A DNA stretch of 64,000 nt from contig NZ_MSIE01000014.1 of the NCBI RefSeq assembly GCF_001921205.1, forward strand, positions 1-64,000. The letters are read 5' to 3'. Each line of letters starts with the position of its first letter. The stretch's first letter is position 1. A program made the translations under genes and the position numbers. This DNA comes from Actinophytocola xanthii (lineage in GTDB: Bacteria; Actinomycetota; Actinomycetes; Mycobacteriales; Pseudonocardiaceae). This document shows positions 1 through 18,768 of this stretch, piece after piece. Under the pieces are notes generated by a model. That model was given only the letters and a program-made list of their open reading frames with translations. It had not been told where the DNA came from and made no database searches.

Positions 1-51
1 GCCGCCGCCGCTCCGGCCGGTGGCGACCCCACCGGCGGCATGGACTTCTGA
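1..51 (+). CDS. groEL: C-terminal end of 60 kDa chaperonin GroEL (partial)
   Basis: Only the last 16 residues are present. They form an alanine/proline-rich tail ending in GGDPTGGMDF before a TGA. A glycine/methionine-rich tail ending GGMDF is the usual C-terminus of actinobacterial GroEL, the ATP-driven protein-folding cage. The assignment rests on this tail alone, since the start lies outside the window. A perfect hairpin follows 35 bases downstream. Confidence 0.75.
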   Translation, partial: AAAAPAGGDPTGGMDF

Positions 52-85
52 TCCAGCCGGCTGGTTAGTCGACAGCGAGACCCGT

Positions 86-115
86 GGGCCCGGACACCGT
101 GTGGTGTCCGGGCCC
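86..115. terminator. Bidirectional intrinsic terminator between groEL and the CHAT gene
   Basis: A perfect 13-bp stem (GGGCCCGGACACC / GGTGTCCGGGCCC) with a GTGT loop sits between two converging genes. There is no long T-run, as is common for high-GC actinobacterial terminators. Confidence 0.8.
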
Positions 116-138
116 TCGGCCGTTCGTGGGACCTGTCC

Positions 139-2844
139 TCAACCCGCGCCGAGCAGGATGAACGGGCGGCGCAGAGGGTCGGTCGCGGTCGCCTCGGCCA
201 GGGCGCGGGCCGGCGTGATGCCGGAGGCGAGGCGCCGGTGGTAGTCGGTCATGGCCTCGGCCAGGTCCGAGCTGAGCGTGGAGAGCAGCCGGTGGTAGTC
301 GGTCATGGTGCGGGCTGCGGAGCGGTGGCCGACGCGGTTGACCGCGGCGACGACGGTGCGTGAGCCGCTGGCGAGCATGGCGCCGGCGAAGCCGAGGGGT
401 TCGTCGCCGGGGCGGATGTGGGACAGGGCGAGCTCGCAGGCGGCGAGCACGATGTGCTCGGGTGGGCGGTGCAGTCGGGCGACCTCGTGGGCGAGCAGGC
501 CGCCGTCGACCAGCTCGAGTCGGGAGAACATGGCGTTGTTGGGTTCGTGGGTGCCGTGGGCGGCGATGTGGACGAGCTTGGCGCCGTCCATGGCCGCCAG
601 CACCGCGCCGGTGGTGGCGCGTTCGCCCTCGAGGATGATCGCGTCGGGGTAGACCGTGCGCAGGTGCTCCAGCTCGGAGACCGACTCGGGCAGGTCGGGC
701 CCGCAGACCAGGACCACCTTGCCGCCGGTGCGGTGGGTGTCGGCGGCGCTGATCCAGGCGGTGGCCGAGGGCGCGACCGAGACCGCGCGGCCGCGCAGGG
801 CCGGGAGCGACTCCCAGGGCACCGAGTACAGCCCGCCGAAGGGCACGATCACCAGCTCGCGGCCCTCGATCAGCTCCTGGGGGATGCCGTTCGGGCCGAA
901 CAGGTACTCGTCGAGCTTCATGATCCGGTTCGCCGCGGACCGGGAGACGGCGTTGACCAGCGGTTCGATCAGGTCGTCCGGGGCCAGCGCGTCCAGGTCG
1001 GCATGCAGCTGCCTGGCCACCTCGAGCACCCTCTCCTGCGACCCGAGCCGGAACAGGTGGGTCCGCCCGCCGCTGACCACGACCGCGGCCAGCTCGTCGC
1101 CCGGCCCGGCGAAGCTGATCATGGCCCGGTCGTCGAGGCGGGCCACGACCTCGTCCGGCGGGCAGACCGGCCGCGGCTTGCCCCAGTGGCTGGTGTGCCA
1201 GCCCAGCCGGCTCACCTCCCGCTGCAGGACCGTCGAGCGGCGTTCCAGGTGGGCCGTGGGTCGGCGTTCCAGTCGCGCCTGCTGCATAGTGCGCAGCACC
1301 GTGCGCAGCTCGGCGACCGCGTCCGCGAGCTCCGGGTCCTCGATCGCCGGCTGTGGCTCGTAGCGGTAGACCTGGGCCCGGGTCTTCTCCTGCCAGCTGA
1401 GCACGCGACGCGCGTCGGCCTCGGTCCTGGCGTCGGCGAGCACGACGTTCACCGCGAGGCGGGCCAGCTCCAGGCCGTGCACGGCGGTGCCGCACACCAG
1501 GTCCAGCCCACCCATCCGGTCCCGCGCGGTGCCGAGCTCGTCCAGCCCTGCCTTCGCCTGGGCCAGCGCGCGGCGGGTCTGCCCCCGTGCCAGCGCCACC
1601 TCCGCCCGGCACAGCCGCAGCAGCATCTTGTGGTCGATCGGGCTCAGCTTGCGCGGGGGTGGTACCCGCTCCAGGAAGGCCTCCGCGGTGTCGATCTCGC
1701 CGCGGCGCAGCGCCAGCCGCACCGCCAACATCCGCGCCATAGCCGACTCGTCGGGCAGCCCGACCTCGGCCAGCCGTTCGGCGAGCTGCTCGGCCTTGGC
1801 GTAGGAGGACCTGCGCGGCCGGCCGTTGAGCGCCAGGTCGACCTCCGCGCGCATTCTGGTCAGCGCGGCGACCTCGGCCCAGGCTTCGTTGCCGCGCTTG
1901 AGGAACCGGCGGTGGGCCGACCCGGCGAGCTGGCGGGCGAGCTCCCGGTCGTCCTGCAGCAACGCCACCGCGGCCCGCGCCACCTCCGCCTCGGCCAGGT
2001 CCTGACCGTTGCGGTGCTCCCGCAGGACGGGCAACGCCTCGTCGAGGTGACGGGCCGCGTCGTCCAGGACGCCCGCCGACAGCAGCGCCCGGGCCTGGTC
2101 GATCTGGGTGCGCGGCACCAGCGCCGGCGCGATCAGCCGGAAGGACTGCTCGGCCTGCTCGTGGTGGACCAACGCACCCGGGATGTCCCCGACCAGCTGC
2201 GCGATCTCGCCCAGGTTGCCCAGGGCCTTGCCCTGGATCGTCGGCAGGTCGTGCTCGACCGCCAGCTCCAGACAGCGCTTCTGGTCCCGCTCCGCCGGCC
2301 CCGGCCTCCCCAGCTCGGCGTAGCCGAACCCGCGGTTCATGTACGCGACAGCGAGCAGCTCCGGATTCCCCGCCGGCGTCCCCTCCGCCTCCTCGAGCAA
2401 CGGGATCGCCCGGTCGAACAACGCCAACGCATCGACCGTCCGCCGGGCACGCAACAGGATCACCCCGTGCTGGTGGTCCACCAACCCCTGCAACGCCGAC
2501 CGCAACGGCCCCTCCGGCAGACCCGCCACGAGGTCGCTCGCCGTGCCCAGGTGCATCAGCCCGTCGGCCACGGACCCGGTCTCGGCCTCGCAGAACGCCA
2601 ACGTCGCCAGCACCCGGGCTCGGATGGCGGCGACGTCGGGGTGGCCGGAGGTGACCGGCAGCGAGCGGAGCGCCAGCCGAAGGAGCTTGATCGCCTCCGG
2701 CGAGCGCCCCGCCTGCGCCTCGTCGACCGCCTTCTTGCGCAGCGCACCGGCGGCCTCGATGCTCTCCTCGAGAGCGGCCGCGCGCCTCGCGGCCTCCGGA
2801 GTGGATTCCGGAGTCACGGCGGAGGAACGGCGCGAACGGGACAC
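139..2844 (-). CDS. TPR-CHAT domain protein (caspase-like protease)
   Basis: A 901-aa protein whose first ~600 residues are helical TPR-type repeats with many A/L/E-rich hairpins, followed by a C-terminal CHAT (caspase HetF associated with TPRs) peptidase. The catalytic dyad is visible: His ~763 in HIAAHG and Cys ~803 in VLAACEL, 40 residues apart. No signal peptide or membrane segment is seen, so it should be cytosolic. CHAT proteases cleave partner proteins after a sensing event transmitted through the TPR scaffold. It is last in a minus-strand cassette, 57 bases after the repeat protein and behind a sigma-factor gene. The GTG start has no clear Shine-Dalgarno; a second GTG lies 9 codons in. 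The final helix carries an odd internal duplication of MTDYHR. The native substrate is unknown; the sequence of the repeat protein next door makes it a candidate. Confidence 0.85.
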   Translation of the reverse strand: MSRSRRSSAVTPESTPEAARRAAALEESIEAAGALRKKAVDEAQAGRSPEAIKLLRLALRSLPVTSGHPDVAAIRARVLATLAFCEAETGSVADGLMHLGTASDLVAGLPEGPLRSALQGLVDHQHGVILLRARRTVDALALFDRAIPLLEEAEGTPAGNPELLAVAYMNRGFGYAELGRPGPAERDQKRCLELAVEHDLPTIQGKALGNLGEIAQLVGDIPGALVHHEQAEQSFRLIAPALVPRTQIDQARALLSAGVLDDAARHLDEALPVLREHRNGQDLAEAEVARAAVALLQDDRELARQLAGSAHRRFLKRGNEAWAEVAALTRMRAEVDLALNGRPRRSSYAKAEQLAERLAEVGLPDESAMARMLAVRLALRRGEIDTAEAFLERVPPPRKLSPIDHKMLLRLCRAEVALARGQTRRALAQAKAGLDELGTARDRMGGLDLVCGTAVHGLELARLAVNVVLADARTEADARRVLSWQEKTRAQVYRYEPQPAIEDPELADAVAELRTVLRTMQQARLERRPTAHLERRSTVLQREVSRLGWHTSHWGKPRPVCPPDEVVARLDDRAMISFAGPGDELAAVVVSGGRTHLFRLGSQERVLEVARQLHADLDALAPDDLIEPLVNAVSRSAANRIMKLDEYLFGPNGIPQELIEGRELVIVPFGGLYSVPWESLPALRGRAVSVAPSATAWISAADTHRTGGKVVLVCGPDLPESVSELEHLRTVYPDAIILEGERATTGAVLAAMDGAKLVHIAAHGTHEPNNAMFSRLELVDGGLLAHEVARLHRPPEHIVLAACELALSHIRPGDEPLGFAGAMLASGSRTVVAAVNRVGHRSAARTMTDYHRLLSTLSSDLAEAMTDYHRRLASGITPARALAEATATDPLRRPFILLGAG

Positions 2845-2901
2845 GGTACTAATGTCAGCACATCATGCCGCTCGCGCCCTACCCGCCTCGGTGTATTGCA
2901 C

Positions 2902-3339
2902 CTAGTTCTTCGCGGTGACCGGCTCGGCCTCGGAGTCGCCCTCGGGGGCACTCCCCGTGCCGACGTGGCCATCGGGGATGCTGCCGGTGCCGACGTGCCC
3001 GTTGGGCGTGCTGCCGGTGCCGCCTTCGGGTGCGCTGCCGGTTCCGACGTGCCCGTTCGGGGTGCTGCCGGTGCCGCCCTCGGGGATGCTGCCGGTACCG
3101 ACGTGGCCCTCGGGGATGCTGCCCGTTCCAACGTGTCCGTTCGGGGTGGCGCCGGTGCCGCCCTCGGGTGCGCTGCCCGTCCCCACGTGTCCGTCCGGTG
3201 TGCTGCCCGCACCACCCTCGGGTGCGCTCCCGGTGCCCACGTGGCCCTCGGGTGCGCTACCCGTGCCCACATGGCCGTCGTCGCCACCCGGGGGCGGGAC
3301 CTCTGGGTCGAAGGTGGGCTTGGTGATCGAGTCAGTCAT
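2902..3339 (-). CDS. GHVGTGS-repeat low-complexity protein of the CHAT cassette
   Basis: 145 aa. A 21-residue head (MTDSITKPTFDPEVPPPGGD) precedes eight copies of GHVGTGS[A/I]P[E/D] and a short acidic tail ending in TAKN. Four copies are extended by GG[A/T]G[S/A]TP[D/N]. There are no hydrophobic segments, no cysteines and no fold that I recognise; it should be disordered. The start is the second ATG of the open frame because GAGGGGAG lies just upstream. It sits between the 153-aa protein and the CHAT protease on the same strand, so it is probably co-expressed. It could be a substrate, a bait or a structural linker; none of these is proven. Confidence 0.7.
   Translation of the reverse strand: MTDSITKPTFDPEVPPPGGDDGHVGTGSAPEGHVGTGSAPEGGAGSTPDGHVGTGSAPEGGTGATPNGHVGTGSIPEGHVGTGSIPEGGTGSTPNGHVGTGSAPEGGTGSTPNGHVGTGSIPDGHVGTGSAPEGDSEAEPVTAKN
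2941..3276 (-). repeat. In-frame tandem repeat with a short-long-long superperiod
   Basis: The coding repeat uses a 30-nt (10-aa) unit and a 54-nt (18-aa) unit in the order S-L-L-S-L-L-S, ending in a partial last unit. The higher-order period is therefore 138 nt (46 aa). Codon-level variation between copies shows that they have drifted while keeping the peptide. Confidence 0.85.
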
Positions 3340-3445
3340 GACTACTCCCCTCAGCAGAACTGGGCAACTCACCTACACAAGAGGCGGGCGCTCACAGTGA
3401 GATACAAACTATCTGCCGAATGGGTCGTAGAAGACTCCGATCGGA

Positions 3446-3907
3446 TTACAAATCCACGGTAGGAGTCACCACGGTCCGTGACTGCTCCGCATTCATGCGC
3501 ACCAGGAGCTGGGTCGTTCCGCGCGGCACCTCGGTCAGCACGAATCGCCCGCCCTCATCGGCTGTGGTCGCCGTCGAGCCGTGGTCGGCCACGCGGACCT
3601 CGACGCCGTGCGCCCCGGCCGGCACGAGCCAGCCGTCGATGCGTTGGCGCTCCCCCGTCCGGGTTACGTTGACCATGACGGTCAGGTCGCCCACGAAGAA
3701 CGTGATGGTTCCCGGCAGTCCCCCGCGCACCCCGGCCAGCATGTTCGTGTTCGCCCACTGCGCGACCTCGATCTCGATGTCCTCGATCGAGTCGATCGCC
3801 ACCGCGAACTGGGCTCGTTCCACCAGACCGGGCGGCATGGGGTCGAGTACGTTGACCAACCGAGCCACCTCGGACATCAGCTCGTCGTCAGACTGGTGCG
3901 TTCTCAT
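3446..3907 (-). CDS. Sigma-coupled protein with C-terminal carboxypeptidase-regulatory-like beta-sandwich
   Basis: 153 aa. The N-terminal half is acidic/helical (DDELMSEVARLVNVLDPMPP, GLVERAQFAVAI). The C-terminal half has a pattern of the carboxypeptidase-regulatory/SpaA-like beta-sandwich (DGWLVPAGAHGVEVRV, TTADEGGRFVLTEVPRG, RTVVTPTVDL). No transmembrane segment or zinc motif is seen, so it is not an ordinary ZAS anti-sigma factor. Its ATG overlaps the sigma TGA by ATGA, which implies translational coupling and a stoichiometric partner. From memory, proteins of this layout follow sigma genes and precede CHAT genes in many actinomycetes. A role as regulator of the sigma factor or adaptor to CHAT is inference. 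Confidence 0.7.
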   Translation of the reverse strand: MRTHQSDDELMSEVARLVNVLDPMPPGLVERAQFAVAIDSIEDIEIEVAQWANTNMLAGVRGGLPGTITFFVGDLTVMVNVTRTGERQRIDGWLVPAGAHGVEVRVADHGSTATTADEGGRFVLTEVPRGTTQLLVRMNAEQSRTVVTPTVDL

Positions 3908-4482
3908 GATCCACTGTCCCCGTGGTAAAGGGTGCGCAGCGTGTTCAGGCAGCGCCCTCTGGTTGGTCCGATACTGCCGTGTGGCATGTGCAGCGCCTCG
4001 GCGACCGCTCGGTACTCCGCGCGCCCGGCGAGCACCGTGAGGCGCAGCAGTTCCTGGCACCGTTGCGTCAGCTGGTGGAACGCCGCCCACAGCTGGCGGT
4101 CCCGCTCACCCCGGAGCACCTCGTGCTCGGGCGACGGATCGGTCGTCGGCAGTTGTTCGGTGATCTCGCTCGACAGCTCCACCTGCCCGGAGCCGCGTTG
4201 TTGCACCCGGCTGGCTTCCCGGCGCGTGGTGGTGATGAGCCACCCGGCCAGCGCCCGCGGTTCGGACAGGCGGTTGATGTGCCGCACCAGGGCGAGCCAC
4301 ACGGTCTGGACCACGTCCTCCGCGCTCGTGCGGTCCAGACCGCCGCTCCGCGCCACGTGCCACACGAGCGGCGAGAGCTCGGCCACGAGGACGTCGAAGG
4401 CGGAGCGGTCCCCGGCCTGCGCGGCGATCATGCATGCCGCGTGCCGGTCCCGTCCCTCCAGGCCCTCCCACGGTTTGACCAT
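3904..4482 (-). CDS. ECF-type RNA polymerase sigma factor
   Basis: 192 aa with sigma region 2 (SAEDVVQTVWLALVRHINRL, then ALAGWLITTTRREASR) and region 4 (LTQRCQELLRLTVLAGRAEY, MPHGSIGPTRGRCLNTLRTL). GSIGPTRxRCLxxL is a common helix-turn-helix signature of one actinobacterial ECF group. The start is the ATG of MVKPWEG; an in-frame GTG 24 bases upstream (VTEVQTAS) is an alternative, and neither has a strong ribosome site. It heads the cassette and is coupled by a 4-base overlap to the next gene. It presumably directs polymerase to its own promoter and a small regulon, released or held by its partner proteins. Confidence 0.88.
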   Translation of the reverse strand: MVKPWEGLEGRDRHAACMIAAQAGDRSAFDVLVAELSPLVWHVARSGGLDRTSAEDVVQTVWLALVRHINRLSEPRALAGWLITTTRREASRVQQRGSGQVELSSEITEQLPTTDPSPEHEVLRGERDRQLWAAFHQLTQRCQELLRLTVLAGRAEYRAVAEALHMPHGSIGPTRGRCLNTLRTLYHGDSGS

Positions 4483-4706
4483 GCTTGCTGTCTGCACCTC
4501 GGTCACCGCTTCCCACCCCGCTTCGTGGGTTGATGTCGTGATGGCACCCAGTCCATCGTGCCAACCCCCGGCGCGTTCGTTGTCCTCATTGCCCTGCTGT
4601 CCTCCGATCGCTCGTCCGAGCGACCGCCAACGAGAGATCTTCTCATCCTTCAAGAGACGAGCTGACAGGTCCAGATACCGGCCATTCGGGTGGTTACCAG
4701 CGGGTA

Positions 4707-5042
4707 TCAGGCAATCCTCGAGATCAACAGCAACAACGCCGCGAGACCAATGACGATACCCGCCAGTAGGGCGCCGCAGCCACCGAGGACGACGCGGCGC
4801 ACCGAACGTGCCCTGGCCGCCACCACCCCGGCCGCCGCCGCGAACACCAGCACCACCCCGACGAACACCGCGCTCGCGCCGATCAGCGCGCCCGGCAGGC
4901 CCGGTCGCTCGGCGAGCGCGGGGCCGACCAGGAGCGCGGCGACGCAGAGCAGCACCGAGCCTCCCACCGCGAGCACCGCGGCCAGCGACACCAGCGCCCG
5001 GGCGGTGCCCACGCGAGAGACTTCCCTCGGCTGCTCGTCCAC
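4707..5042 (-). CDS. Small multi-pass membrane protein
   Basis: 111 aa with about three hydrophobic helices (AVLAVGGSVLLCVAALLVG, ALIGASAVFVGVVLVFAAAA, ALLAGIVIGLAALLLLI) and basic loops, so an integral membrane protein. The family is not recognised. The GTG start is supported by a TAGCCT box ending exactly 6 nt upstream, a leaderless-promoter signature. It is divergent from the MoxR gene and could be independent of both neighbours. Confidence 0.65.
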   Translation of the reverse strand: MDEQPREVSRVGTARALVSLAAVLAVGGSVLLCVAALLVGPALAERPGLPGALIGASAVFVGVVLVFAAAAGVVAARARSVRRVVLGGCGALLAGIVIGLAALLLLISRIA

Positions 5043-5048
5043 GCCGGC

Positions 5049-5054
5049 AGGCTA
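5049..5054 (-). promoter_or_regulatory. Leaderless -10 box of the small membrane protein
   Basis: On the minus strand TAGCCT is followed by 6 nt and then GTG. Confidence 0.5.
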
Positions 5055-5112
5055 CGTGGTCGGTGACAGCGCCCGACCGGCCGCGATGCCGCTCCGGGCG
5101 GGGCACACCATC

Positions 5113-5118
5113 TACCCT
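5113..5118 (+). promoter_or_regulatory. Leaderless -10 box of the MoxR gene
   Basis: TACCCT, 6 nt, then GTG at 5125. This favours the GTG start over the ATG three codons later. Confidence 0.5.
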
Positions 5119-5124
5119 CGAGGC

Positions 5125-6018
5125 GTGGCGGACATGACGTGGGCGCCGGTCGGCTCGCCCGAGGAGCTCGCCGGCTCGCTGGACCGGGTCGGCTACCTGG
5201 CCGACGAGGGCGTCGCCACCGCGGCCTTCCTGGCGCTCCGGCTGGGCCGGCCGCTGTTCTGCGAGGGCGAGCCCGGTACCGGCAAGACCTCCCTCGCCGT
5301 CGCGTTGGCCACGGCGCTCGACGTCCCGATGATCAAGCTCCAGTGCCACGAGGGGATCGACTTCAGCCAGGCCCTCTACGACTGGGACTTCCCGCGCCAG
5401 CTGCTGCACCTGCGGGCGCTCGAAGCGGCGTCGGGAGCGGCACTGGACGCGGACGTCGCCGAGCGCTCGCTGTACACGCGGCGTTTCCTGCTTGCCCGGC
5501 CGCTGCTTCGGGCCCTGGAGGAGGCCCCGTGCGTGCTCCTGGTCGACGAGGTCGACCGGGCGGACGACGAGTTCGAGGCGTTCCTGCTCGAGGTCCTTGG
5601 CGAGAACGCGGTCACCGTGCCTGAGCTCGGTGAGGTTCGGGCCGAGGTGCCGCCGCTGGTCGTGCTGACCTCGAACCGGACCAGGGAGGTGCACGACGCG
5701 CTCAAGCGGCGGTGCCTGTACCACTGGCTCGAGCACCCGGGTCTCGACCGCGAGGTGGCGATCCTCCGCCGCCGGCTGCCGGAGCTGTCCCAGCGCCTGG
5801 CCGAGCAGGTGGCCGGCGCGGTGCGCCGCCTCCGTGCGGTCGAGTTGCTCAAGCCGCCCGGTGTGGCCGAGTCGATCGACTGGGCCGAGGCGCTGGCGGC
5901 GCTGGGCAGGACCGAGCTGGACGCGGCCGCCGCCGCGGCGACCCTCGGCGCGGTGCTGAAGTACCGGGAGGACGCCCAGCGCGTCGTCGCCGGGCTGGAC
6001 ACGATCCTCGCCGGCTGA
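5125..6018 (+). CDS. coxD: MoxR-family AAA+ ATPase, CoxD-like
   Basis: 297 aa. Walker A GEPGTGKTS (~residues 50-58), Walker B CVLLVDEVDRADDEFEAFLL, sensor-1 LTSNRTREVHDALKRRC and the HWLEHPG arginine-finger region are all visible and complete. MoxR ATPases of this subgroup act with a VWA protein to insert or mature the metal centre of molybdenum hydroxylases; CoxD in Oligotropha is needed for the Cu/Mo site. The expected VWA partner lies 3.4 kb downstream, separated by an accessory stretch. GTG 5125 is chosen because of the leaderless box; ATG 5134 is possible. Confidence 0.8.
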   Translation: MADMTWAPVGSPEELAGSLDRVGYLADEGVATAAFLALRLGRPLFCEGEPGTGKTSLAVALATALDVPMIKLQCHEGIDFSQALYDWDFPRQLLHLRALEAASGAALDADVAERSLYTRRFLLARPLLRALEEAPCVLLVDEVDRADDEFEAFLLEVLGENAVTVPELGEVRAEVPPLVVLTSNRTREVHDALKRRCLYHWLEHPGLDREVAILRRRLPELSQRLAEQVAGAVRRLRAVELLKPPGVAESIDWAEALAALGRTELDAAAAAATLGAVLKYREDAQRVVAGLDTILAG

Positions 6019-6098
6019 GCACCGCGAAAAATCGTTCGCCCCGCCCCGGGGCCGCGGCGCATAGTTGTCCCGACGCGCGTCAACCAAGGAGGACCAGG

Positions 6099-6131
6099 AT
6101 GAACACCGCTGCCTGGGGGAGTTCGCGGTAG
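6099..6131 (+). CDS. Possible 10-codon leader ORF
   Basis: ATG with AAGGAGG seven bases upstream encodes MNTAAWGSSR followed by TAG. The ribosome site is one of the best in the window, but the peptide matches nothing I know. It could be a leader peptide, a micropeptide or chance. Confidence 0.25.
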   Translation: MNTAAWGSSR

Positions 6132-6301
6132 TTCGGTGGTCCTCACCGGTGGTGCCGCCGCGATGTCCGGGCCGGTCGCGGTGCCCGCTCGCGGCGGCAC
6201 CACTCGGTTCTCCCGCCTTGTCCGGCGGGTTCCCCTTCGAGCCACTTTCGCCCTCCCGCGCCCGGCCCCGCTACCTGGCCCTGGTCGCTGTGGGAGGCCC
6301 G

Positions 6302-6334
6302 CCTGGCGCCGGCCGTGATCCGGCCGGCGCCAGG
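6302..6334 (+). terminator. Strong hairpin, probable terminator
   Basis: A perfect 13-bp stem CCTGGCGCCGGCC / GGCCGGCGCCAGG with a 7-base loop. It lies 280 bases after the MoxR stop and 170 after the micro-ORF, so it probably ends one of those transcripts. Confidence 0.6.
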
Positions 6335-6781
6335 GTTGGCCGGACCGCGGCCCCCCGTCTCGCCGGAATGGTGACGGCACGGTCGGTGCGATGAGATGGT
6401 AGGACAACTTGTCGAATCTGGAACAGTGTTCGCTTGCGATTTGGTGATTGCGGATTAATCGCGTGCGGAGATGGCCAGAGTATGGCCGTTTGTCAGTTCT
6501 CCAGCCAGGTCCGGGCGTCCTGTCGGAGGAATTAGCTGCTCCGCTATGGTCTCATCGCCAGGCGTTGAGCAGGGTAACTTTTCAGTCCGAACTTGATCCG
6601 ATCGGGGAATTCGCGTGGATCCGTTCAGCCAGAACGAGACCAGCCGTGGGCGGCGCCCGAGATCCCGGTATGCGTCCGTGGGTGACAAGCGCGCGGACCG
6701 CTTAACCGCCGGCCGTCGATCCGGTCCGCCGGGCGCCGCGGGCGCCGGTGTGCCGTGCGACCCGCCCTCGGTTGGGCGGGC

Positions 6782-7987
6782 ATGAGCGGGGAGGTGCTGC
6801 TCGAGGAGGACATCACCGGTTGGTCTGCCCGGTTCGCCGTGCGCGTCCGGGCCGCGGTCGACCTGTCCGCGTCCGACCGTGCCTCCGACCGTGCTTCCGA
6901 CGGGCCGCTGGACGATCAGGCCGGCGGCGCGCTGGAGCAGCGGGTGCGACGGGCCTACCGCGACGACGTCGAGTACCTCCGTCGTCTGTCCACTGTGGAA
7001 AACGCCGCGTTCGAGGTGCGGTGGCTCGCCGTGCCGGGCAGGCCGATCACGTTGACCCTGCTCGGCCGCGTGGACCGCCAGGACCGGGCCCGGGCGAGGG
7101 CGGACGCGGTCGAGGCGCTCGAGCAGCTGGCCGAGGTGCCCGCGCACGTCGTGGCCGAGCCGCTGCGGACCCGGCTCGCCGTCGAGCGGGCGTTCACCCC
7201 GTTCCGGGTGGCGCCAACCGGGCTGGCCGAGGTGCGCAAGCCCTGCCTGATCGGCCGTCCCCGGCGCGCGGACGCGCCGATGCGGGTCTACCTCGCCGTA
7301 CCGCGGCTGCGCCCGGTGTCCAGCGCCTGGCCCGGAGTGCTCGAGCTGCTCGCCGCGGCCGGCCAGCCCGCGATGCTCTCGGTCGGCCTGGTGCCCACGG
7401 CCGTCGCGCCGACCTTCGGCCAGTTCCTCTCGCTGGTCGCCGACCAGTACGCGGCGCTCGGGCGGCCGGGCAGGTCCGGTGGAACCGTTGCCCGCTACGG
7501 GATGCCGGACCGGATCGACGGCGACCCGTTCGCCGCCGAGGCGGAGCGGTTCTACCGGGACGCCGCGCAGCGCTACCGCGGCACCGTGCTCCGGACGAGG
7601 ATCACGCTGGCGACGCTCGGCCCGCTCGACGAGTGCCTCGCCCACGGTGTTGCCGAGCGCATCGGTCGCGGTATCGCCCAACAGGTCCCGGGCAAGTCCT
7701 GCGTCGTCGAGCGTCCGGTCTCACCGCGGGACCAGGGTGTCGCCCTGGCCAGCCTGCGCGCTCTCGGCGTACCCCGGTGGGGTGGGCACGAGGTCTGGCG
7801 CGCCGAGGGCGTCCCACAGGCGCTGCGGGAGCTGTGTGAGCTGGCCGACCCGGAGGAGGCCGCCGCCGCTGCCTGGTTGCCGGCCGCGGCCACCGGCCGG
7901 CTCCCCGGTGGGTTCCCCACGCTCGGGCCACCCGGTGCGGACGGCGACGGCGCCGATCCCGGTGTACGGCACCTGAACTCCCGCTGA
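6782..7987 (+). CDS. VirB4/HerA-like N-terminal module without its ATPase domain
   Basis: 401 aa, not firmly recognised. The C-terminal pattern (RELCELADPEEAAAAAWLP, then TGRLPGGFPTLG) resembles the linker (EEAxxxFRLP...PG) that precedes the ATPase core in VirB4/HerA-type ATP-binding proteins. Here the reading frame stops about 35 residues later, before any Walker A. Upstream there is a mixed alpha/beta body (FEVRWLAVPGRPITLTLLGR; RYRGTVLRTRITLATLGPLD). It may be the adaptor half of such an ATPase, a remnant, or a free-standing protein. The ATG follows GGGCGGG; GTG 6755 is an alternative. It lies in the accessory stretch that splits the cox genes. Confidence 0.6.
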   Translation: MSGEVLLEEDITGWSARFAVRVRAAVDLSASDRASDRASDGPLDDQAGGALEQRVRRAYRDDVEYLRRLSTVENAAFEVRWLAVPGRPITLTLLGRVDRQDRARARADAVEALEQLAEVPAHVVAEPLRTRLAVERAFTPFRVAPTGLAEVRKPCLIGRPRRADAPMRVYLAVPRLRPVSSAWPGVLELLAAAGQPAMLSVGLVPTAVAPTFGQFLSLVADQYAALGRPGRSGGTVARYGMPDRIDGDPFAAEAERFYRDAAQRYRGTVLRTRITLATLGPLDECLAHGVAERIGRGIAQQVPGKSCVVERPVSPRDQGVALASLRALGVPRWGGHEVWRAEGVPQALRELCELADPEEAAAAAWLPAAATGRLPGGFPTLGPPGADGDGADPGVRHLNSR

Positions 7988-8105
7988 CGGTCGCGCACCG
8001 CGACCGCGTAGTTCCTCCCTGTGTGTCAGGTGACGCAGAGCAGTTCCCCTCCCCGTGTGAGGCTCGAATAGTCGAGGCGCTTCGGGAAAGAAGGGGGGAG
8101 GAACG

Positions 8106-8285
8106 ATGCAGGCATACTGCTCCGTCTCCTTCGCACTCAAACTTGCCGCGTTCTGCCTGCTTGTCGGGGTAGTCGTCGGAGCGTGGCTGAGTGCGGCCGT
8201 GTGGAGTGGCAGCGCGGCCGGCTCCGAGCCTTCCCGAGCGCCGTTGACCCAGGTGGCCGACGTGCTGCCGGGGCCACGGGAATGA
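8106..8285 (+). CDS. 59-aa single-pass membrane peptide
   Basis: Begins at ATG behind GGGGGGAGGAACG, an excellent ribosome site. Sequence: MQAYCSVSFALKLAAF followed by a hydrophobic CLLVGVVVGAWLSAAVW helix and a short polar tail. The family is not recognised. It follows the 401-aa gene by 118 bases and is closed by a palindrome and a T-tailed terminator, so it is probably a real short transcript. The small size and one helix would suit a toxin-like or regulatory membrane peptide, but nothing in the sequence proves it. Confidence 0.55.
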   Translation: MQAYCSVSFALKLAAFCLLVGVVVGAWLSAAVWSGSAAGSEPSRAPLTQVADVLPGPRE

Positions 8286-8336
8286 GGAACAACGAACGAA
8301 GGGCGCGGACATGGAGTCACACGAGATGAGGTAGGG

Positions 8337-8354
8337 CCAGTCGTCGACGACTGG
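8337..8354. other. 18-bp perfect palindrome
   Basis: CCAGTCGTCGACGACTGG is fully self-complementary and lies immediately before the terminator, between the 59-aa ORF and a converging gene. It could be a protein-binding site or an extra hairpin. Confidence 0.5.
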
Positions 8355-8359
8355 GGGTG

Positions 8360-8404
8360 AGGTGGGCCGGCCGGAAAGCCATTCCGGCGCGGCCCACCTG
8401 TTTT
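8360..8404 (+). terminator. Intrinsic terminator with T-run
   Basis: AGGTGGGCCG / CGGCCCACCT outer stem, CCGGAA / TTCCGG inner stem, then TGTTTT. It is the only terminator in the window with a clear T tract. It ends the plus-strand small-peptide transcript and may also serve the converging gene. Confidence 0.8.
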
Positions 8405-8419
8405 GTGGTCAGGGGTTTC

Positions 8420-9370
8420 TCAGGCGCGCCATTGCACGCCGTACGCGAATCCCTGGCGCGGCCCGGGGAAAACCTCGTGGATCTCCCCGGCGGAGTTCGC
8501 GACGAGCAGTTCGCCCGACGGCTGGCCGTCGTCGATGACCCGGATCGGGCTGTCGGTCACCCGCCACAGCGTGCGCGGCACGCGGCTCGGCTCGAAGCGC
8601 AGCCGGAGCTCGAACAGGTCGCAGCGGCGGTGCGGTACGAACAGGTAGTGCGGTCGCACGGGTTGGCCCGGCGGCACCCGCAGGCGCATCGCGTAGTCGT
8701 GGCTCTGCCCGTGGGCCAGGGTGAGCGGCAGCTCGACGGTGAAGCGGAAGTGGCTCTCCGACGGGCGCTCGCGGCGGACCAGCCGACCGCCGTAGAGCAT
8801 GGTGACCGCCAGGTCGTGGATCGGGCGGCGGTCGGCGGGGTGGCGCGGCAGGCTGAACTCGGTGTCCAGCTCGGCGATCCCGTCCCGGGCTGCGACGACC
8901 GTGCGTGACTCGGTGACCTCGGGGGACTGGCCGTCCAACCGGACCAGCGCGGAGAACTGCCGGACGTACCAGCCCTCGCCGTCGGCGCCGCGCGCCGTTG
9001 GCAGGCCGGCGGCGATCTCGGCCAGCCGCGCGCAGGCCGCCTCGGTCCGCCGGCGCGCGGTGCGGTCGTTCTTCGCCAGCCGCTGCGACAGCCAGGACAG
9101 CCGCTCGCCGAGCCGCGGCTGGCTGGCGTCCGGGTGCAGGGCGAACGCGGCGAGTGCGGCCAGCCGCAGGTCCGGCGGCAGCCGCTCGGCGAGGTCGGTC
9201 AGCGTGGCGGTCAGCCGGTCCCGCACGGTGCTCGGCGGGTCCTCCGGGCCGATCCCGCACAGTCGCCGCAGCGCCGGGCCGGCGCGGTCGACGATGTTGG
9301 TCGCCTGCACCCCGCGGCCCTTGCGCAGGTGCTTGAGCTCGTCGGCGAGCGTCGCGTGGTCGTCAAGCAT
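8420..9370 (-). CDS. Conserved actinobacterial protein of unknown function
   Basis: 316 aa. The N-terminus (HATLADELKHLRKGRGVQ, GPALRRLCGI) is a helical pattern seen at the start of many uncharacterised actinomycete proteins, some annotated as regulators. The rest is beta-rich (SHFRFTVELPLTLAHGQSHD, LRVPPGQPVRPHYLFVPHRR, LFELRLRFEPS). No catalytic motif or membrane segment is seen. The ATG is chosen over an upstream start because GGAAAG precedes it. It is divergent from the VWA gene with 49 bases between starts, so they may share regulation. Confidence 0.6.
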   Translation of the reverse strand: MLDDHATLADELKHLRKGRGVQATNIVDRAGPALRRLCGIGPEDPPSTVRDRLTATLTDLAERLPPDLRLAALAAFALHPDASQPRLGERLSWLSQRLAKNDRTARRRTEAACARLAEIAAGLPTARGADGEGWYVRQFSALVRLDGQSPEVTESRTVVAARDGIAELDTEFSLPRHPADRRPIHDLAVTMLYGGRLVRRERPSESHFRFTVELPLTLAHGQSHDYAMRLRVPPGQPVRPHYLFVPHRRCDLFELRLRFEPSRVPRTLWRVTDSPIRVIDDGQPSGELLVANSAGEIHEVFPGPRQGFAYGVQWRA

Positions 9371-9419
9371 CGCTTTCCGTGCCTGAGGCGAACGGGATCC
9401 GAAGAGTAACAATACGAGT

Positions 9420-10541
9420 GTGCCGTCCACTGACTCCGCCGACCCGCTGCCAGGTCTGGTCGGGTTCGCCTCGGCACTGCGCGAGGCCGGGTTGGCCTGC
9501 GACGCGCACCGGGTGCAGGCCTACCTGCGTGCGGTGGACGAGCTCGACCCCGCGCGGCCGAACCAGCTGTACTGGGCCGGTCGCCTGACGTTGTGCTCGG
9601 AGCCGGACGACCTCCCGCGCTACGACGACGCGTTCGCCGCCTGGTTCTCCGCCGCGCCGCCAACCCGGCGGCGGCCGCCCGCCCGGACGGTGCCGAGGCG
9701 CACCAGCACGGCCGCGTTGACCGAGGTACCCAGCGCCGGCGGGCGGACCGACCGGGAGACCGAGGAGCTCCGGGTGGCCGCCGCGGGGGAGGAGGTGCTG
9801 CGCCACCGCGACATCGCCGCGCTCACCACCGCCGAACGCGAGCACCTCCGCTCGCTGCTCGCGGCGCTGCGGCTCGACCCGCCGCTGCGCGTGTCCATGC
9901 GGCTGCACCCGTCCAGGGCCGGCCGGCTGGACCCGGCCCGGGTGCTGCGAGGGATGCGGGCGACCGGCGGCGAGCCCGTCCGGTTGGCCTACCGGGACCG
10001 GAGCCGCCGCCCACGCCGGCTCGTGCTACTGGTGGACGTGTCCGGGTCGATGAGCCCGTACGCGGACGCGCTGCTGCGGTTCGCGCACGCGGTGACCAGG
10101 GCCGCGCCGGCCAGTACCGAGGTGTTCACCGTCGGCACCCGGCTGACCCGGCTGACCAGGCAGCTGCGGGCCCGGGACCCGGAGGAGGCGCTGCGCGCGG
10201 CCGCCCGCGCGGTGCCCGACTTCGCCGGCGGCACCCGGTTGGGCGAGGTGCTGCGGGTGTTCCTGGACCGCTGGGGGCAGCGAGGGCTGGCCAGGCGTGC
10301 GGTGGTCGTGCTGTTCTCCGACGGGTGGGAACGGGGTGACGCGTCGCTGCTGGGTTCGGAGCTGGCCAGGCTGCGCCGGCTGGCGCACGCGGTGCTCTGG
10401 GTCAACCCGCACGCCGGCCGGGACGGGTACGCACCGGTCCAGGCCGGGATCGCCGCCGCGCTGCCACACCTGGACCGGTTGCTGGCCGGACATAGTCTGG
10501 CGACGTTGCGGGAGTTGCTGACGGAGGTGCGCCGTGCGTGA
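9420..10541 (+). CDS. coxE: VWA domain protein, CoxE-like
   Basis: 373 aa. The C-terminal von Willebrand A domain carries an intact MIDAS motif (LLVDVSGSMS, about residues 203-212; FAGGTRLGEVL; LFSDGWERGD). The N-terminal half is helical with an Arg-rich linker. CoxE-type proteins pair with MoxR/CoxD ATPases in maturation of CO-dehydrogenase-like enzymes. The GTG start leaves 49 bases to the divergent gene. Its 3' end overlaps the xdhC-like gene by 8 bases, so they are translationally coupled. Confidence 0.82.
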   Translation: MPSTDSADPLPGLVGFASALREAGLACDAHRVQAYLRAVDELDPARPNQLYWAGRLTLCSEPDDLPRYDDAFAAWFSAAPPTRRRPPARTVPRRTSTAALTEVPSAGGRTDRETEELRVAAAGEEVLRHRDIAALTTAEREHLRSLLAALRLDPPLRVSMRLHPSRAGRLDPARVLRGMRATGGEPVRLAYRDRSRRPRRLVLLVDVSGSMSPYADALLRFAHAVTRAAPASTEVFTVGTRLTRLTRQLRARDPEEALRAAARAVPDFAGGTRLGEVLRVFLDRWGQRGLARRAVVVLFSDGWERGDASLLGSELARLRRLAHAVLWVNPHAGRDGYAPVQAGIAAALPHLDRLLAGHSLATLRELLTEVRRA

Positions 10542-11652
10542 CGTGCTGGACGAACTCGTGGGCCGGTACTCGGCAGGGGAGGCGGTGGCCCTGGGCACCG
10601 TCGTGGCGACGTTCTCCTCGGCGCCGCGCGCGCCGGGGGCGGCGATGCTGGTCGCCGCGGACGGCACCGTGGCGGGCAGCGTGTCCGGCGGGTGTGTCGA
10701 GGGAGCGGTCTACGAGCAGGGCCGCGAGGTGCTCGACACCGGTACCCCGGTGCTCCGGCGCTTCGGCGTGAGCGACGACGACGCGTTCGCGGTCGGCCTG
10801 ACCTGCGGCGGGATCATCGACATCTTCATCGAGCGGGTCAGCGCGGCCGACTTCCCGGAGTTCGCCGACCTGGCGAAGTCCATCCAGACCGGGGAGCCGG
10901 TGGCGCTGGCGACCGTGGTCGACCATCCCGAGCCGGAGCGGGTGGGCCGGCGCCTCGTCGTCTGGCCGGACCGCGTGCTGGGCGATCTCGGGACGGCCAG
11001 GATCAACGCGGCGGTGGCCGACGACGCCCGCGGCGTGCTGGCCACCGGTCGGACCGGGACCCTGCACTACGGCGTCGAGGGGGAGCGGCGAGGTGAGGGC
11101 CTGTCGGTGTTCGTGAGCTCGTTCGAGCCGCCGCCGCGGCTGCTGGTGTTCGGCGCGATCGACTTCGCCGCGGCCATGGCGAGGCTCGGGGCGTTCCTCG
11201 GGTACCAGGTCACGGTCTGCGACGCGCGCGCGGTGTTCGCCACCGCGAGCCGGTTCCCCGAGGCGGACGAGGTGGTGGTGGACTGGCCGCACCGCTACTT
11301 GGCGGCGGAGGTGGCGGCGGGCCGGGTGGACCGGCGCACGGTCGTCGCCGTGCTCACCCACGACCCGAAGTTCGACGTACCGGTGCTCGAGGTCGCGCTG
11401 CGCTCGGAGGCAGGCTACGTCGGGGCGATGGGGTCCCGGCGCACCCACGACGACCGGATGGCCCGCCTGCGGGAGGCCGGCCTGTCCGAGGACGAGCTGG
11501 CCCGGCTGGCTTCACCGATCGGTCTGGACCTCGGTGCCCGCACCCCGGAGGAGACCGCCGTGTCGATCGCGGCCGAGATCATCTCGCTGCGCTGGGGCGG
11601 TGCGGGCACCCGGCTGAGCGAGGCCAGCGGCCGTATCCACCGCGAGTCCTGA
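10534..11652 (+). CDS. XdhC/CoxI family maturation factor
   Basis: 372 aa with both domains of the family. The N-terminal XdhC_CoxI domain carries GSVSGGCVEGAV and TCGGIIDIFIE. The C-terminal Rossmann-like domain contains VVAVLTHDPKFDVPVL and YVGAMGSRRTHDDRM. XdhC binds molybdopterin and supports sulfuration and insertion into xanthine-dehydrogenase-type enzymes, so a chaperone role for the CoxSLM enzyme downstream is likely. It is coupled to the VWA gene and ends 10 bases from the converging rarD, so the cox structural genes need a separate promoter. Confidence 0.88.
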   Translation: MRDVLDELVGRYSAGEAVALGTVVATFSSAPRAPGAAMLVAADGTVAGSVSGGCVEGAVYEQGREVLDTGTPVLRRFGVSDDDAFAVGLTCGGIIDIFIERVSAADFPEFADLAKSIQTGEPVALATVVDHPEPERVGRRLVVWPDRVLGDLGTARINAAVADDARGVLATGRTGTLHYGVEGERRGEGLSVFVSSFEPPPRLLVFGAIDFAAAMARLGAFLGYQVTVCDARAVFATASRFPEADEVVVDWPHRYLAAEVAAGRVDRRTVVAVLTHDPKFDVPVLEVALRSEAGYVGAMGSRRTHDDRMARLREAGLSEDELARLASPIGLDLGARTPEETAVSIAAEIISLRWGGAGTRLSEASGRIHRES

Positions 11653-11662
11653 CCGGCCGTCC

Positions 11663-12625
11663 TCAGAGCGGCTGCGCCGGCGCGGTCCCGGCGGACGTGC
11701 GGGAGGTGCGGGCGTGGCGCATGCCCTCCACGGTCAGCACGACCAGCCCCAGCCACACGATGGCGAAGCCGAGCCACCGCTCCGGCGGCATGGCCTCGTG
11801 GAACACCAGCACCCCGAACGCGAACTGGAGCACCGGCGCCAGGTACTGGAGCAGCCCGATCATCGACAACGGGATCCGCACCACCGCCCCGCCGAAGGCC
11901 AACAGCGGCAGGGTGGACACCACGCCCCCGGCCATCAGCAGCAACGCGTGGCCGACCCCCAGTGAGAAGTAGGTGCCGCTGCCCGAGATCTCGAGGTAGG
12001 AGATGTAGGCAAGGGCCGGGAGGAAGCTCAGCCCGGCCTCGATGCCGACCGACTCCACCGCGGGGACGTCGGCGAGCTTCTTGACCAGGCTGTAGATCGA
12101 GAAGCTGAACGCGAGCAGCAGCGCGAGCCAGGGCACCTCGCCGTACCCGATCGCGAGCACCACGACCGCCACCACGCCGAGCGCCACGGCGACCCACTGC
12201 CAGGCCCGTAGCCGCTCGCCCAGCAGCAGGACGCCGATCAGCACCGCGACCAGCGGCCCGGTGAAGTACCCGAGCGCGGTCTCCACGACCCGGCCGTGGT
12301 TCACGCCCCAGATGTAGCCACCCCAGTTGAGGGCGATCAGCACGGTCGCGAGCGACAACAGCCCGAGCCGGCGCCGGTTGGCCAGCACCTGCCGGACCGT
12401 GGAGAAGCCCGTGCCCCGACGCCGGCCGAGGAACCAGAGCACGCCGACCATCACGACCAGCGACCACACCATCCGGTGGGCGAGCGTCTCCACCGCTCCC
12501 GCCGACCCGAGCAGGGTCCAGAACAGCGGGAACACCCCCCACAGCCCGTAGGCGACGGCGCCGAGCAGCACTCCGCGCTGGTACTCGGGGTAGGGCTCGA
12601 GCCGTGGCTCTACGACTGTGGACAC
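11663..12625 (-). CDS. rarD: RarD-type EamA/DMT transporter
   Basis: 320 aa with ten hydrophobic helices in two EamA halves and the RarD signature region ([44 protein letters not shown]). RarD proteins are inner-membrane permeases of uncertain substrate. The GTG start is 6 nt after a minus-strand TACGAT, a leaderless signature. It is transcribed against the surrounding cox genes and separates xdhC from coxS; no functional link is evident. Confidence 0.9.
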
Positions 12626-12628
12626 CGC

Positions 12629-12655
12629 ACGATCGTACGCTTGCCTAACGATCGT
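12629..12655 (-). promoter_or_regulatory. rarD promoter with twin ACGATCGT palindromes
   Basis: The minus-strand -10 TACGAT (12632-12637) is followed by 6 nt and the GTG start. Two copies of the 8-bp palindrome ACGATCGT (12629-12636, 12648-12655), 19 bp centre to centre, flank or overlap it, as an operator pair would. Confidence 0.45.
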
Positions 12656-12910
12656 CAGGGTGGAGGCGGCGCAGGATCACACCCCGTCGAAAGAGGTCCT
12701 CGACACAGCGACGTGGCCGCCCGTCGACGTCCCGATCAGGTCAGTCAGTTTCCGCAACCGAGGCCCTCCCGGCTTCGCCGCCGGTGTCCACTTTCCCGCC
12801 GCGGGTCTTGTCGCGCGGGCTTCGCGGGGGCAGGCTCACTAGCTGTGAGCCCGCTCACGCCAGTCCCGAACCGACCAGCCGGAGCCGTCTGTGTCGTATT
12901 TGGAGGCCCT

Positions 12911-13438
12911 ATGCGCATCACCGTGACCGTTGACGGAACCACCTTCACCGACGACGTCGAACCCCGCCAGCTGCTCGTGCACTACCTGCGCGAACGGCTC
13001 GGCAAGGTCGGCACCGTCGTCGGCTGCGACACCAGCAACTGCGGAGCGTGCACCGTCCATCTCGACGGCCACAGCGTCAAGTCCTGTTCCGTCCTCGCCG
13101 TCCAGGCCGACGGGAGCGAGGTCACCACGATCGAAGGTCTCGCCCGGGACGGCCGGCTCCACCCGGTCCAGCAGGCGTTCCACGACAACCACGCCCTGCA
13201 GTGCGGGTTCTGTACGCCGGGCATGATCATGCAGTCGATCGACCTGCTCGCCGACAACCCGGACCCGGACGAACAGGCCGTTCGGGAAGGGCTGGAGGGC
13301 AACCTCTGCCGGTGCACCGGCTACCAGAACATCGTCCGGGCGGTCCGCGCCGCGGCGAGCACGATGAGCGGCGGTGCCGGACCCGAGGCCGAACAGGTCG
13401 CCCCGGCGAGCAACGTCGCGGGGGGCGGGGACCGATGA
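12911..13438 (+). CDS. coxS: CO-dehydrogenase-like small [2Fe-2S] subunit
   Basis: 175 aa. The N-terminal plant-type [2Fe-2S] site ([16 protein letters not shown] ... KSC) and the C-terminal four-helix [2Fe-2S] site (CGFCTPGMI ... [11 protein letters not shown]) are both complete. It carries electrons from the Mo site in CoxL to FAD in CoxM. About 20 residues longer at the C-terminus than typical CoxS. The ATG sits 5 bases after GGAGG. It overlaps coxL by ATGA. The 285 bases upstream show no obvious operator. Confidence 0.92.
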
Positions 13439-15879: not shown

Positions 15880-16730
15880 TCCCAGCCGCTTTCGACTACG
15901 TCGCGCCGTCCAGTGTGGACGAGGTGGTGCGTGAGCTGGCGGCGGCCGGCGACGAGGCCAAGGTGATCGCCGGCGGGCAGAGCCTGCTGCCGGTGCTGCG
16001 GATGCGCCTCGCCGCCCCGGCGAAGCTGGTCGACCTCGGCCGGATCCCGGAGCTGCGCGGGGTCCGCGACGACGGCGACGCGATCGTCATCGGCGCCATG
16101 ACGACCCACTACGAGGTGCAGCGGGACCCGCTCGTGCGCGAGCACGCCTCGCTGATCGCGCTGGCCACCGACACGGTCGCCGACCCGCAGGTCCGCCACC
16201 GCGGCACGTTCGGCGGCTCGCTCGCGCACGCCGATCCGGCCGGGGACCTGCTCGCCCCCGCGCTGGCGCTGGACGCCGAGCTGGTTCTGTCCGGTGTGGA
16301 CGGGCGGCGAACGGTGCCGGCGGGTGAGTTCTTCACCGACATCTTCACCACCTCGATGCGCCAGGACGAGATCCTGTGCGAGGTGCGGGTGCCGAAGCGG
16401 ACCGGCTGGAACGCCCACTACGAGAAGTTCAACCGGGTCGCCCAGGCGTGGTCGATCGTCGCCGTGGCGGCGGCGGTGCGCACCGAGGACGGCACGATCG
16501 CCGAGGCCAGGGTGGGTCTCACCAACATGGCGGCCACCCCGCTGCGCGCCACGGCCGTCGAGCAGGCGCTGGTCGGTCAGCCGGCCACGACCGAGGCGAT
16601 CACCGCGGCCGCCCAGCACGCGGCGGAGGGCACCAGCCCCTCCGTCGACGGGAACGCCGACCTGGAGTTCCGCCAGCACCTCGCCCGGGTACTCACGTCT
16701 CGAGCGGTGTCAGCCGCGGTAGGCGCATAA
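15876..16730 (+). CDS. coxM: CO-dehydrogenase-like medium FAD subunit
   Basis: 284 aa. The FAD-binding motifs AGGQSLLPVLRMRLA (N-terminal) and TFGGSLAHADPAGDL are both present, followed by the CO_deh_flav_C domain (FNRVAQAWSIVAVAAAV, LTNMAATPLRA). It passes electrons from the [2Fe-2S] clusters to the quinone pool. The GTG start overlaps the coxL stop. A strong hairpin follows its stop. Confidence 0.92.
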   Translation: MIPAAFDYVAPSSVDEVVRELAAAGDEAKVIAGGQSLLPVLRMRLAAPAKLVDLGRIPELRGVRDDGDAIVIGAMTTHYEVQRDPLVREHASLIALATDTVADPQVRHRGTFGGSLAHADPAGDLLAPALALDAELVLSGVDGRRTVPAGEFFTDIFTTSMRQDEILCEVRVPKRTGWNAHYEKFNRVAQAWSIVAVAAAVRTEDGTIAEARVGLTNMAATPLRATAVEQALVGQPATTEAITAAAQHAAEGTSPSVDGNADLEFRQHLARVLTSRAVSAAVGA

Positions 16731-16736
16731 AATGCA

Positions 16737-16787
16737 CCCGCCGGGACGCCTCCGCCGGCACCAGCTCGGCGGAGGCGTCCGGCGGGG
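16737..16787 (+). terminator. Hairpin between coxM and coxG
   Basis: A 13-bp perfect inner stem (GGACGCCTCCGCC and its complement) extended by about 7 bp past one bulge. It lies inside the operon and is followed closely by the coxG ribosome site, so it may attenuate or stabilise rather than end transcription. Confidence 0.6.
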
Positions 16788-16805
16788 CTTTGTGAGGAGG
16801 ACCCA

Positions 16806-17555: not shown

Positions 17556-17601
17556 GCGCCACCCCTTGAACACCCAGTGCCACGCGGGGAGGATGTCGCG
17601 C

Positions 17602-18744: not shown

Positions 18745-18756
18745 CCGTGCGCTCGG

Positions 18757-18762
18757 TACCGT
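18757..18762 (+). promoter_or_regulatory. Leaderless -10 box of the beta-lactamase-like gene
   Basis: TACCGT, 6 nt, then ATG at 18769. Confidence 0.5.
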
Positions 18763-18768
18763 CAGCGT

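Follow-up and report, generated by a model that had tools for sequence, protein, structure and literature searches.

A cassette of four genes stands near the start of the window, i.e., the whole stretch of 64,000 nucleotides analysed here, which opens contig C46 in the draft genome (8.34 Mb) of a soil actinobacterium. Its four open reading frames (ORFs), all on the minus strand, encode in transcription order an extracytoplasmic function (ECF) sigma factor, a 153-aa protein, a repeat protein (REP) and a TPR-CHAT protease of the caspase/separase-like kind. With a probability that we put at about one half, this cassette would be a sigma switch of the ECF54 type that regulates its own expression and is coupled to a protease which reads a tandem-repeat tag. 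The evidence comes from comparisons: covariation links the repeat unit to the first two thirds of the TPR region of CHAT, and not to its protease half, and the sigma gene and the repeat gene have one promoter-like motif in common. The grouping of sigma factor and proteases is already known, because the accessible part of PMC8999054 reports ECF54 with carboxypeptidase, subtilase and CHAT neighbours; what looks new is a diversifying tandem tag coupled to TPR-CHAT, and no description of the repeat element was found in literature on CHAT, subtilase, tandem repeat, Pseudonocardiaceae and ECF54 (the last through that same part of PMC8999054).

Repeat tracts in REP and other cassette proteins

The eight GHVGTGS units of REP are identical in protein and all different in DNA (synonymous divergence, pS, 0.67), the choice of identical units making the test circular where nonsynonymous changes are concerned; with a looser unit pattern the synonymous value is 0.58 and the nonsynonymous one (pN) 0.055. 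In 22 further tracts, where pS ranges from 0.14 to 0.71, pN is lower than pS in every case and zero in 16, which points to selection on the unit. In five congeneric loci the corresponding position is held by small proteins with the units GYHDSS, GFHDNS, GHFDGGS, GHHEGN and GHIGTGS.

Tandem repeats are also borne by proteases of related cassettes. Eighteen of 26 cassette subtilase ORFs carry a repeat of 6–12 residues, e.g., PFMKGG, NPAYQG or PAPWDSHGIG, and in the 11 ORFs where the catalytic Asp was located the tract starts 57–79 residues ahead of it. Control subtilases were taken from 30 loci in six genomes, giving 20 readable ORFs, one of which was itself a cassette subtilase, and among the 19 non-cassette subtilases left a tract lies within 150 residues before the Asp in one (Fisher 1e-5 against the 18 of 26). 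In Amycolatopsis, Prauserella, Saccharomonospora and kin, a papain-like protease (C1) and a repeat protein, with units such as GAWDPNTPP and GWDPYAPP, precede the sigma factor, and the two have a common C-terminal domain of about 72 residues. This repeat protein has a tract in 21 of 23 CHAT-bearing loci and in none of six without CHAT (p 6e-5), the lineages being related and most of the six CHAT-less loci being Kibdelosporangium, hence not independent. Finally, a trypsin-like protease (L206) has PHYQAVTGLE repeats after its catalytic His, a residue read by eye.

Covariation with the TPR solenoid

Within the genus, the window and locus L044, with GH[VI]GTGS as their common unit, are 79% identical over TPR residues 1–430, the other 14 pairs being 55–64% identical; among the protease halves, by contrast, L040 and L044 are closest to each other (91%), and the window and L044 stand at 86%. 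L040 and L041, which have similar units, show the second highest TPR identity of the 15 pairs. For 21 papain-type cassettes, unit distance was compared with TPR distance while controlling for the protease half, the sigma factor, the 153-aa protein and the papain-like protease, giving a partial r of 0.49 (p 0.0003, a Mantel value that, like the others given here, ignores relatedness and is hence too small). By region of CHAT the signal in these 21 is 0.51 for residues 40–180, 0.46 for 180–310, -0.03 for 310–430 and -0.30 for the protease half, and with p <0.02 the C-terminal domain of the repeat protein itself gave 0.32 and the 153-aa protein 0.29, lower values of 0.24 and 0.19 being obtained for the linker and the papain-like protease. 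The 12 Amycolatopsis-type loci give a partial r of 0.84 (p 0.0003) for CHAT residues 40–310, 0.63 for the C-terminal domain of the repeat protein and -0.22 for the protease half, the remaining regions not being significant.

Conservation of the cassette and its sigma factor–partner core

Conservation was followed over 140 stretches that surround genes related to that of the 153-aa protein; of these, 133 distinct loci remained after six duplicates and one stretch lacking the gene were set aside. Genes were called by a simple GC-position rule and not by a gene finder, the 80 named loci were taken as the best among 143 that were confirmed out of 162 matched, and the search patterns that yielded them were built on Pseudonocardiaceae, so that counts lean to that family. 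The 153-aa family is present in 34 of 60 relatives and in 36 of 396 genomes of the phylum; among 72,556 plasmid records it was found once, on an 11.85-Mb replicon, and there is therefore no sign of plasmid spread.

A sigma gene lies directly upstream of the 153-aa gene in 127 of the 133 loci, with an overlap of four bases in 107 of these and some overlap in 120. CHAT is encoded at most 2.6 kb downstream in 77 of the 133 and anywhere in the stretch in 85, for which the seven CHAT matches in the entire genome of the window (8.34 Mb) serve as chance baseline. A cassette-type subtilase is present in 22 loci and a papain-like protease in 32, with up to three protease classes beside the sigma factor. 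Co-occurrence across genera, which the earlier note on this DNA had named beforehand as a test of its own proposal, is thus conserved. The sigma gene and the 153-aa gene form the core of the cassette, since 44 of the 127 sigma-bearing loci keep both with no CHAT in reach; the overlapping genes and their joint retention also bear out the suggestion that the 153-aa protein is the partner of the sigma factor.

The 153-aa protein has in Pfam only a sub-threshold match to CarboxypepD_reg (4.6e-4, 20.9 bits, cut-off 32.3). Residues D22, P25, L28 and the R89-D-G-W93 block are invariant in the family (alignment of 28 sequences), and the AlphaFold2 model shows two N-terminal helices followed by an all-beta domain (mean pLDDT, a per-residue confidence score, 83), in agreement with the beta-sandwich label given to it at the outset. 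A search of this model for an anti-sigma fold returned generic beta-sandwich matches only, with no match in the PDB at E <= 0.001, and neither the 153-aa protein nor REP belongs to an anti-sigma family of Pfam or NCBIfam, which matches the ECF54 trait of having no classical anti-sigma domain beside the sigma factor.

The sigma factor of the window is probably of the ECF54 kind, an assignment made by gene neighbourhood rather than by sigma sequence, because carboxypeptidase, subtilase and CHAT neighbours are what the accessible part of PMC8999054 gives for ECF54, together with a proposal of proteolytic control and a named group representative, Geodermatophilus amargosae SFT86700.1. Carboxypeptidase-type, subtilase and CHAT genes all occur in the wider family studied here; of these, the cassette of the window has CHAT and, by a sub-threshold match, the CarboxypepD_reg-like protein, and it lacks a subtilase. 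A second sigma factor, 66% identical to that of the window, is encoded elsewhere in the same genome, at G000:C123:80663-81232 (L267), without adjoining 153-aa or CHAT genes.

A promoter motif shared by the sigma and repeat genes

The motif GTATCT-N16-CTCTTG stands ahead of both the sigma gene and the REP gene. In six aligned congeneric loci all 12 of its positions are matched before the sigma gene; before the repeat gene, five of the loci match all 12 and L043 matches 11. Inside cassette stretches (0.54 Mb) there are 16 sites matching at 12 positions, 30 at 11 and 70 at 10, vs 1, 4 and 47 outside them (3.96 Mb), in genomes that are related and of which six were counted twice. In eleven loci, of which one is a duplicate, the motif also lies ahead of the papain gene, at 52–64 bases from its aligned part, and a weaker form precedes the sigma gene in Amycolatopsis. 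Six whole genomes of the genus contain 16 exact copies, 11 of them in cassettes, four before a structured RNA and one elsewhere, and a reversed-pattern control gave none.

We infer that this sigma factor reads GTATCT-N16-CTCTTG. Because of the shared motif, the switch would be autoregulated, with REP and, by its position, CHAT under the same control. For REP as a cleavable element that restrains the sigma factor, which the earlier note had considered, these results are unfavourable: REP is absent from most cassettes, being replaced by repeats that are protease-borne or otherwise placed, and, since its gene has the promoter motif of the sigma gene, it stands downstream of the sigma factor, at least in expression.

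One exact match (G000:C35:110812-110839, L244), which occurs in a single genome, precedes an ORF of 91 aa with no assigned function. The structured RNA, of about 120 nt, is encoded at G000:C1:180478-180620 between a GAPDH gene and a WhiA-like gene (both named by eye); its loci are L259 (from 1501) and L268 (5479, plus strand) in the same genome and L249, L248, L251, L256 and L260 in five congeneric genomes. A promoter of the cassette type precedes it in six genomes, at 12 of 12 positions in four and 11 of 12 in two. Of its 44 predicted pairs, 15 have both partners changed in one or more of the sequences, and the last hairpin is terminator-like. Comparison with Rfam gave no family at threshold and only sub-threshold microRNA matches, taken as chance; possibly it is a small RNA controlled by the sigma factor.

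Proposed mechanism and alternatives

In the reading that we prefer, the coupled 153-aa partner would hold the sigma factor, which on release would transcribe its own operon and also, using a promoter of the same type, the repeat gene and probably the CHAT gene behind it. REP would present many copies of a short peptide to the groove formed by the first two thirds of the TPR solenoid, a docking suggested by the covariation; in other lineages a subtilase or trypsin-like protease, as the second protease, would bear the tag, or else a small protein with the C-terminal domain of the papain-like protease. Because the tag sits on or beside a second protease in those lineages, it probably brings CHAT and its client together, and where such a protease is present CHAT may recruit or activate it. 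Caspases are activated by induced proximity, and in this genus, because of the eight copies and of the lack of a second protease in the cassette, the tag would most likely cluster CHAT in that caspase-like manner or else be its substrate.

A broader and more tentative proposal, which we think possible although the odds are against it, is that actinobacterial TPR-CHAT proteases use diversifying docking codes, the N-terminal TPR solenoid reading a tandem peptide that is presented in cis on client proteases or in trans on a multivalent activator. Each of the paralogous cassettes in a cell would then have a code of its own, such as GHVGTGS in the window and DPAPWDSHGI on the subtilase of this genome's second cassette, and several caspase-like pathways would operate in parallel without crosstalk, each under its own sigma factor or stress input. 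If true, this would bear on how CHAT proteases other than Csx29 choose and meet their targets; the repeat tag and the TPR part would be the two halves of a recognition pair, addressable with peptides and a single domain, and would offer both a bacterial parallel of adaptor-driven caspase activation and ready-made orthogonal protease–tag pairs. The shared promoter suggests that the sigma factor acts before tag and protease, which would be the reverse of the craspase model or a loop back onto it.

Several observations weigh against a tag read by the TPR solenoid, besides the circularity of the intra-tract test on identical units and the too small Mantel p values. TPR identity between L040 and L041 is only 64% despite their similar units; pN is above zero in six of the 22 other tracts, as it is in the window under the looser pattern; eight of the 26 cassette subtilase ORFs have no tract and, when tracts are counted anywhere, five of the 19 control subtilases have one; the repeat-protein homologues of L047 and L059 lack a tract; and a repeat element was sought in about 30 CHAT-bearing loci, e.g., those of the Amycolatopsis orientalis group, with none in reach. 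The structural model of CHAT is poor at residues 762–858, and the 66%-identical second sigma factor could also read the cassette promoter.

A craspase-like switch, in which CHAT as the input would cleave the 153-aa partner (or REP) and thereby free the sigma factor as the output, is in our view rather unlikely. It would account for the coupled partner and the conserved CHAT, it has a precedent in Csx29, which according to the accessible part of PMC10028731 cleaves Csx30, a binder of an ECF-like sigma factor, and it is compatible with a sigma promoter ahead of REP, anti-sigma genes being often autoregulated; it could even coexist with the tag model as a loop. However, sigma factor and partner persist in the 44 loci without CHAT or subtilase, or with C1 only, in reach, the sequence of REP is not conserved, and the partner shows no relation to Csx30 in NCBIfam (0 families). 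The same 44 loci make it improbable that the proteases keep the sigma factor off by degrading it, as in the published proposal for ECF54; up to three protease classes beside the sigma gene would fit this, but the coupled partner that is kept after protease loss would be left unexplained, and so would the covariation of tag and TPR. Of the proteolysis-gated sigma switch put forward in the earlier note, the conserved grouping and the sigma–partner pair hold, and the idea itself is already in print for ECF54 (PMC8999054, accessible part).

The head-to-tail, near-identical units and a REP gene placed ahead of a protease gene would also suit a multi-copy precursor that CHAT cuts into short signal or effector peptides. 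We find this very improbable, given that no signal sequence is apparent in REP by eye (no predictor was run), that the cassette has no modification or export gene and that like tracts sit within proteases and not in a free precursor. Hardly probable at all is an origin of the tracts as neutral disordered linkers with repeats born by slippage: low-complexity composition and variable copy number are what it would lead one to expect, but the copies differ synonymously, pN stays below pS throughout the 22 tracts, the unit covaries with the TPR region and, in papain-type loci, tracts are absent where CHAT is absent.

Features of the cassette and related systems

The positions of the cassette features are collected in Table 1. 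The gene order, the four-base coupling of the first two genes and the intact His/Cys dyad noticed earlier were all confirmed, the last in 91 of 93 aligned CHAT sequences (the window and 92 others), where His763 and Cys803 are both kept, the other two ending before those columns.

Table 1. Positions of the cassette features in the window
Feature	Position	Strand	Evidence and remarks
TPR-CHAT protease, 901 aa, GTG start	139..2844	-	Pfam CHAT 2.1e-27, TPR_12 2.4e-8; dyad conserved
Catalytic His763 (codon 558-556) to Cys803 (codon 438-436)	436..558	-	CHAT alignment
TPR solenoid part covarying with repeat unit, residues 40-310	1915..2727	-	Covariation analysis
REP, 145 aa from ATG, 8 x GHVGTGS	2902..3339	-	Small repeat ORFs in the same position at five congeneric loci
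REP repeat tract, residues 22-130	2950..3276	-	8 units, 8 DNA versions, synonymous divergence 0.67
Promoter-like motif P2, GTATCT-N16-CTCTTG, 38 bases ahead of REP start codon	3378..3405	-	
153-aa partner (BETA), two helices and beta-sandwich	3446..3907	-	ATG overlaps sigma stop by 4 bases; alignment of 28 sequences; AlphaFold2 model
ECF-type sigma factor, 192 aa	3904..4482	-	TIGR02937 3.4e-20, 72 bits, cut-off 42.9; Pfam Sigma70_r2 3.8e-11
Promoter-like motif P1, GTATCT-N16-CTCTTG, ahead of sigma gene	4651..4678	-	
Extended block upstream of sigma gene, including the -35-like half	4673..4695	-	AACCACCCGAATGG-Y-CGGTATCT, identical in six congeneric genomes except Y

The protease matches Pfam CHAT (PF12770) with 96.7 bits (cut-off 24) and has the dyad. 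In Foldseek its model comes closest to separase and to the TPR domains of LGN/Pins; Csx29 does not appear among the 50 matches listed, which carries little weight in view of the poorly modelled stretch 762–858, and the TPR-CHAT structure entry 7zoq gave only a weak sequence match (E 0.038). REP, which would be 156 aa long with the GTG start of the ORF listing, has no significant Pfam family (best ToxB_N, E 0.67). PADLOC defence models gave no family for the four window proteins, and one cassette subtilase matches the general subtilase and IetS models.

The nearest known system is the ECF54 group (Casas-Pastor 2021 and Huang 2015, both via the accessible part of PMC8999054), which is likewise actinobacterial, lacks a classical anti-sigma domain and has the neighbours and proposed proteolytic control given above. 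The cassette of the window differs in having no subtilase, and within that part of PMC8999054 there is no mention of a tandem-repeat element, a repeat protein, papain-like or trypsin-like members, tag–TPR covariation or a shared promoter.

With craspase/CASP (type III-E Cas7-11, Csx29, Csx30, CASP-sigma) the cassette has in common a TPR-CHAT protease and an ECF-like sigma factor in one locus, with a partner beside the sigma factor, but in the window a tag lies ahead of CHAT and one promoter motif serves tag gene and sigma gene. Membership of the Csx29 family of TPR-CHAT proteins was rejected (NF041237, 24.3 bits, cut-off 300). No RAMP match (PF03787; Cas7-11) was obtained in the genome of the window, a positive control matching in 4 of 14, and a search for CRISPR arrays in window positions 1–20000 returned only the repeats of the REP gene and two short repeat arrays, in agreement, for arrays over this range and for RAMP over the genome, with the absence of array and Cas gene remarked on earlier; membership of the craspase family is not supported. 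As to Csx30, comparison of the 153-aa protein and of REP with NCBIfam returned no family at E <= 1. Craspase is thus an analogy for the sigma–protease link and not the family of this cassette.

Neighbourhoods with EACC2 described in the accessible part of PMC8195603 likewise couple a caspase-superfamily domain to an ECF sigma factor and a TPR protein (DUF1822), but with another TPR family and other adaptor domains, and no tandem-repeat tag is described in that part. Separase (C50), besides giving the best Foldseek matches, resembles the protease in combining a helical solenoid with a caspase fold; there is no membership at the sequence level, and regulation through a tandem-repeat tag would be peculiar to our proposal.

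Further loci of the family deserve mention. CHAT genes are fragmented or shortened in L172, L048, L056, L059 and L200, by gene decay or sequencing error. The locus L119, in a record of Rhodococcus rhodnii, is Kibdelosporangium-like (73% identity, as for L118), perhaps because the assembly is mixed or wrongly labelled. In the window's genome a second cassette (L066, G000:C172:61000-78000) encodes a subtilase with DPAPWDSHGI repeats, a 153-aa homologue and a TPR-CHAT protease, with no adjoining sigma gene found. In L198, from position 8212, short GHGLYPA repeats stand in frame just ahead of an AMP-ligase-like gene that adjoins a 153-aa homologue, and in L190 and L191 the 153-aa gene is present two or three times and the CHAT gene twice, side by side with a pair of subtilase genes whose repeat units differ (HPLYDG or HPMYDG; PFTSGG).

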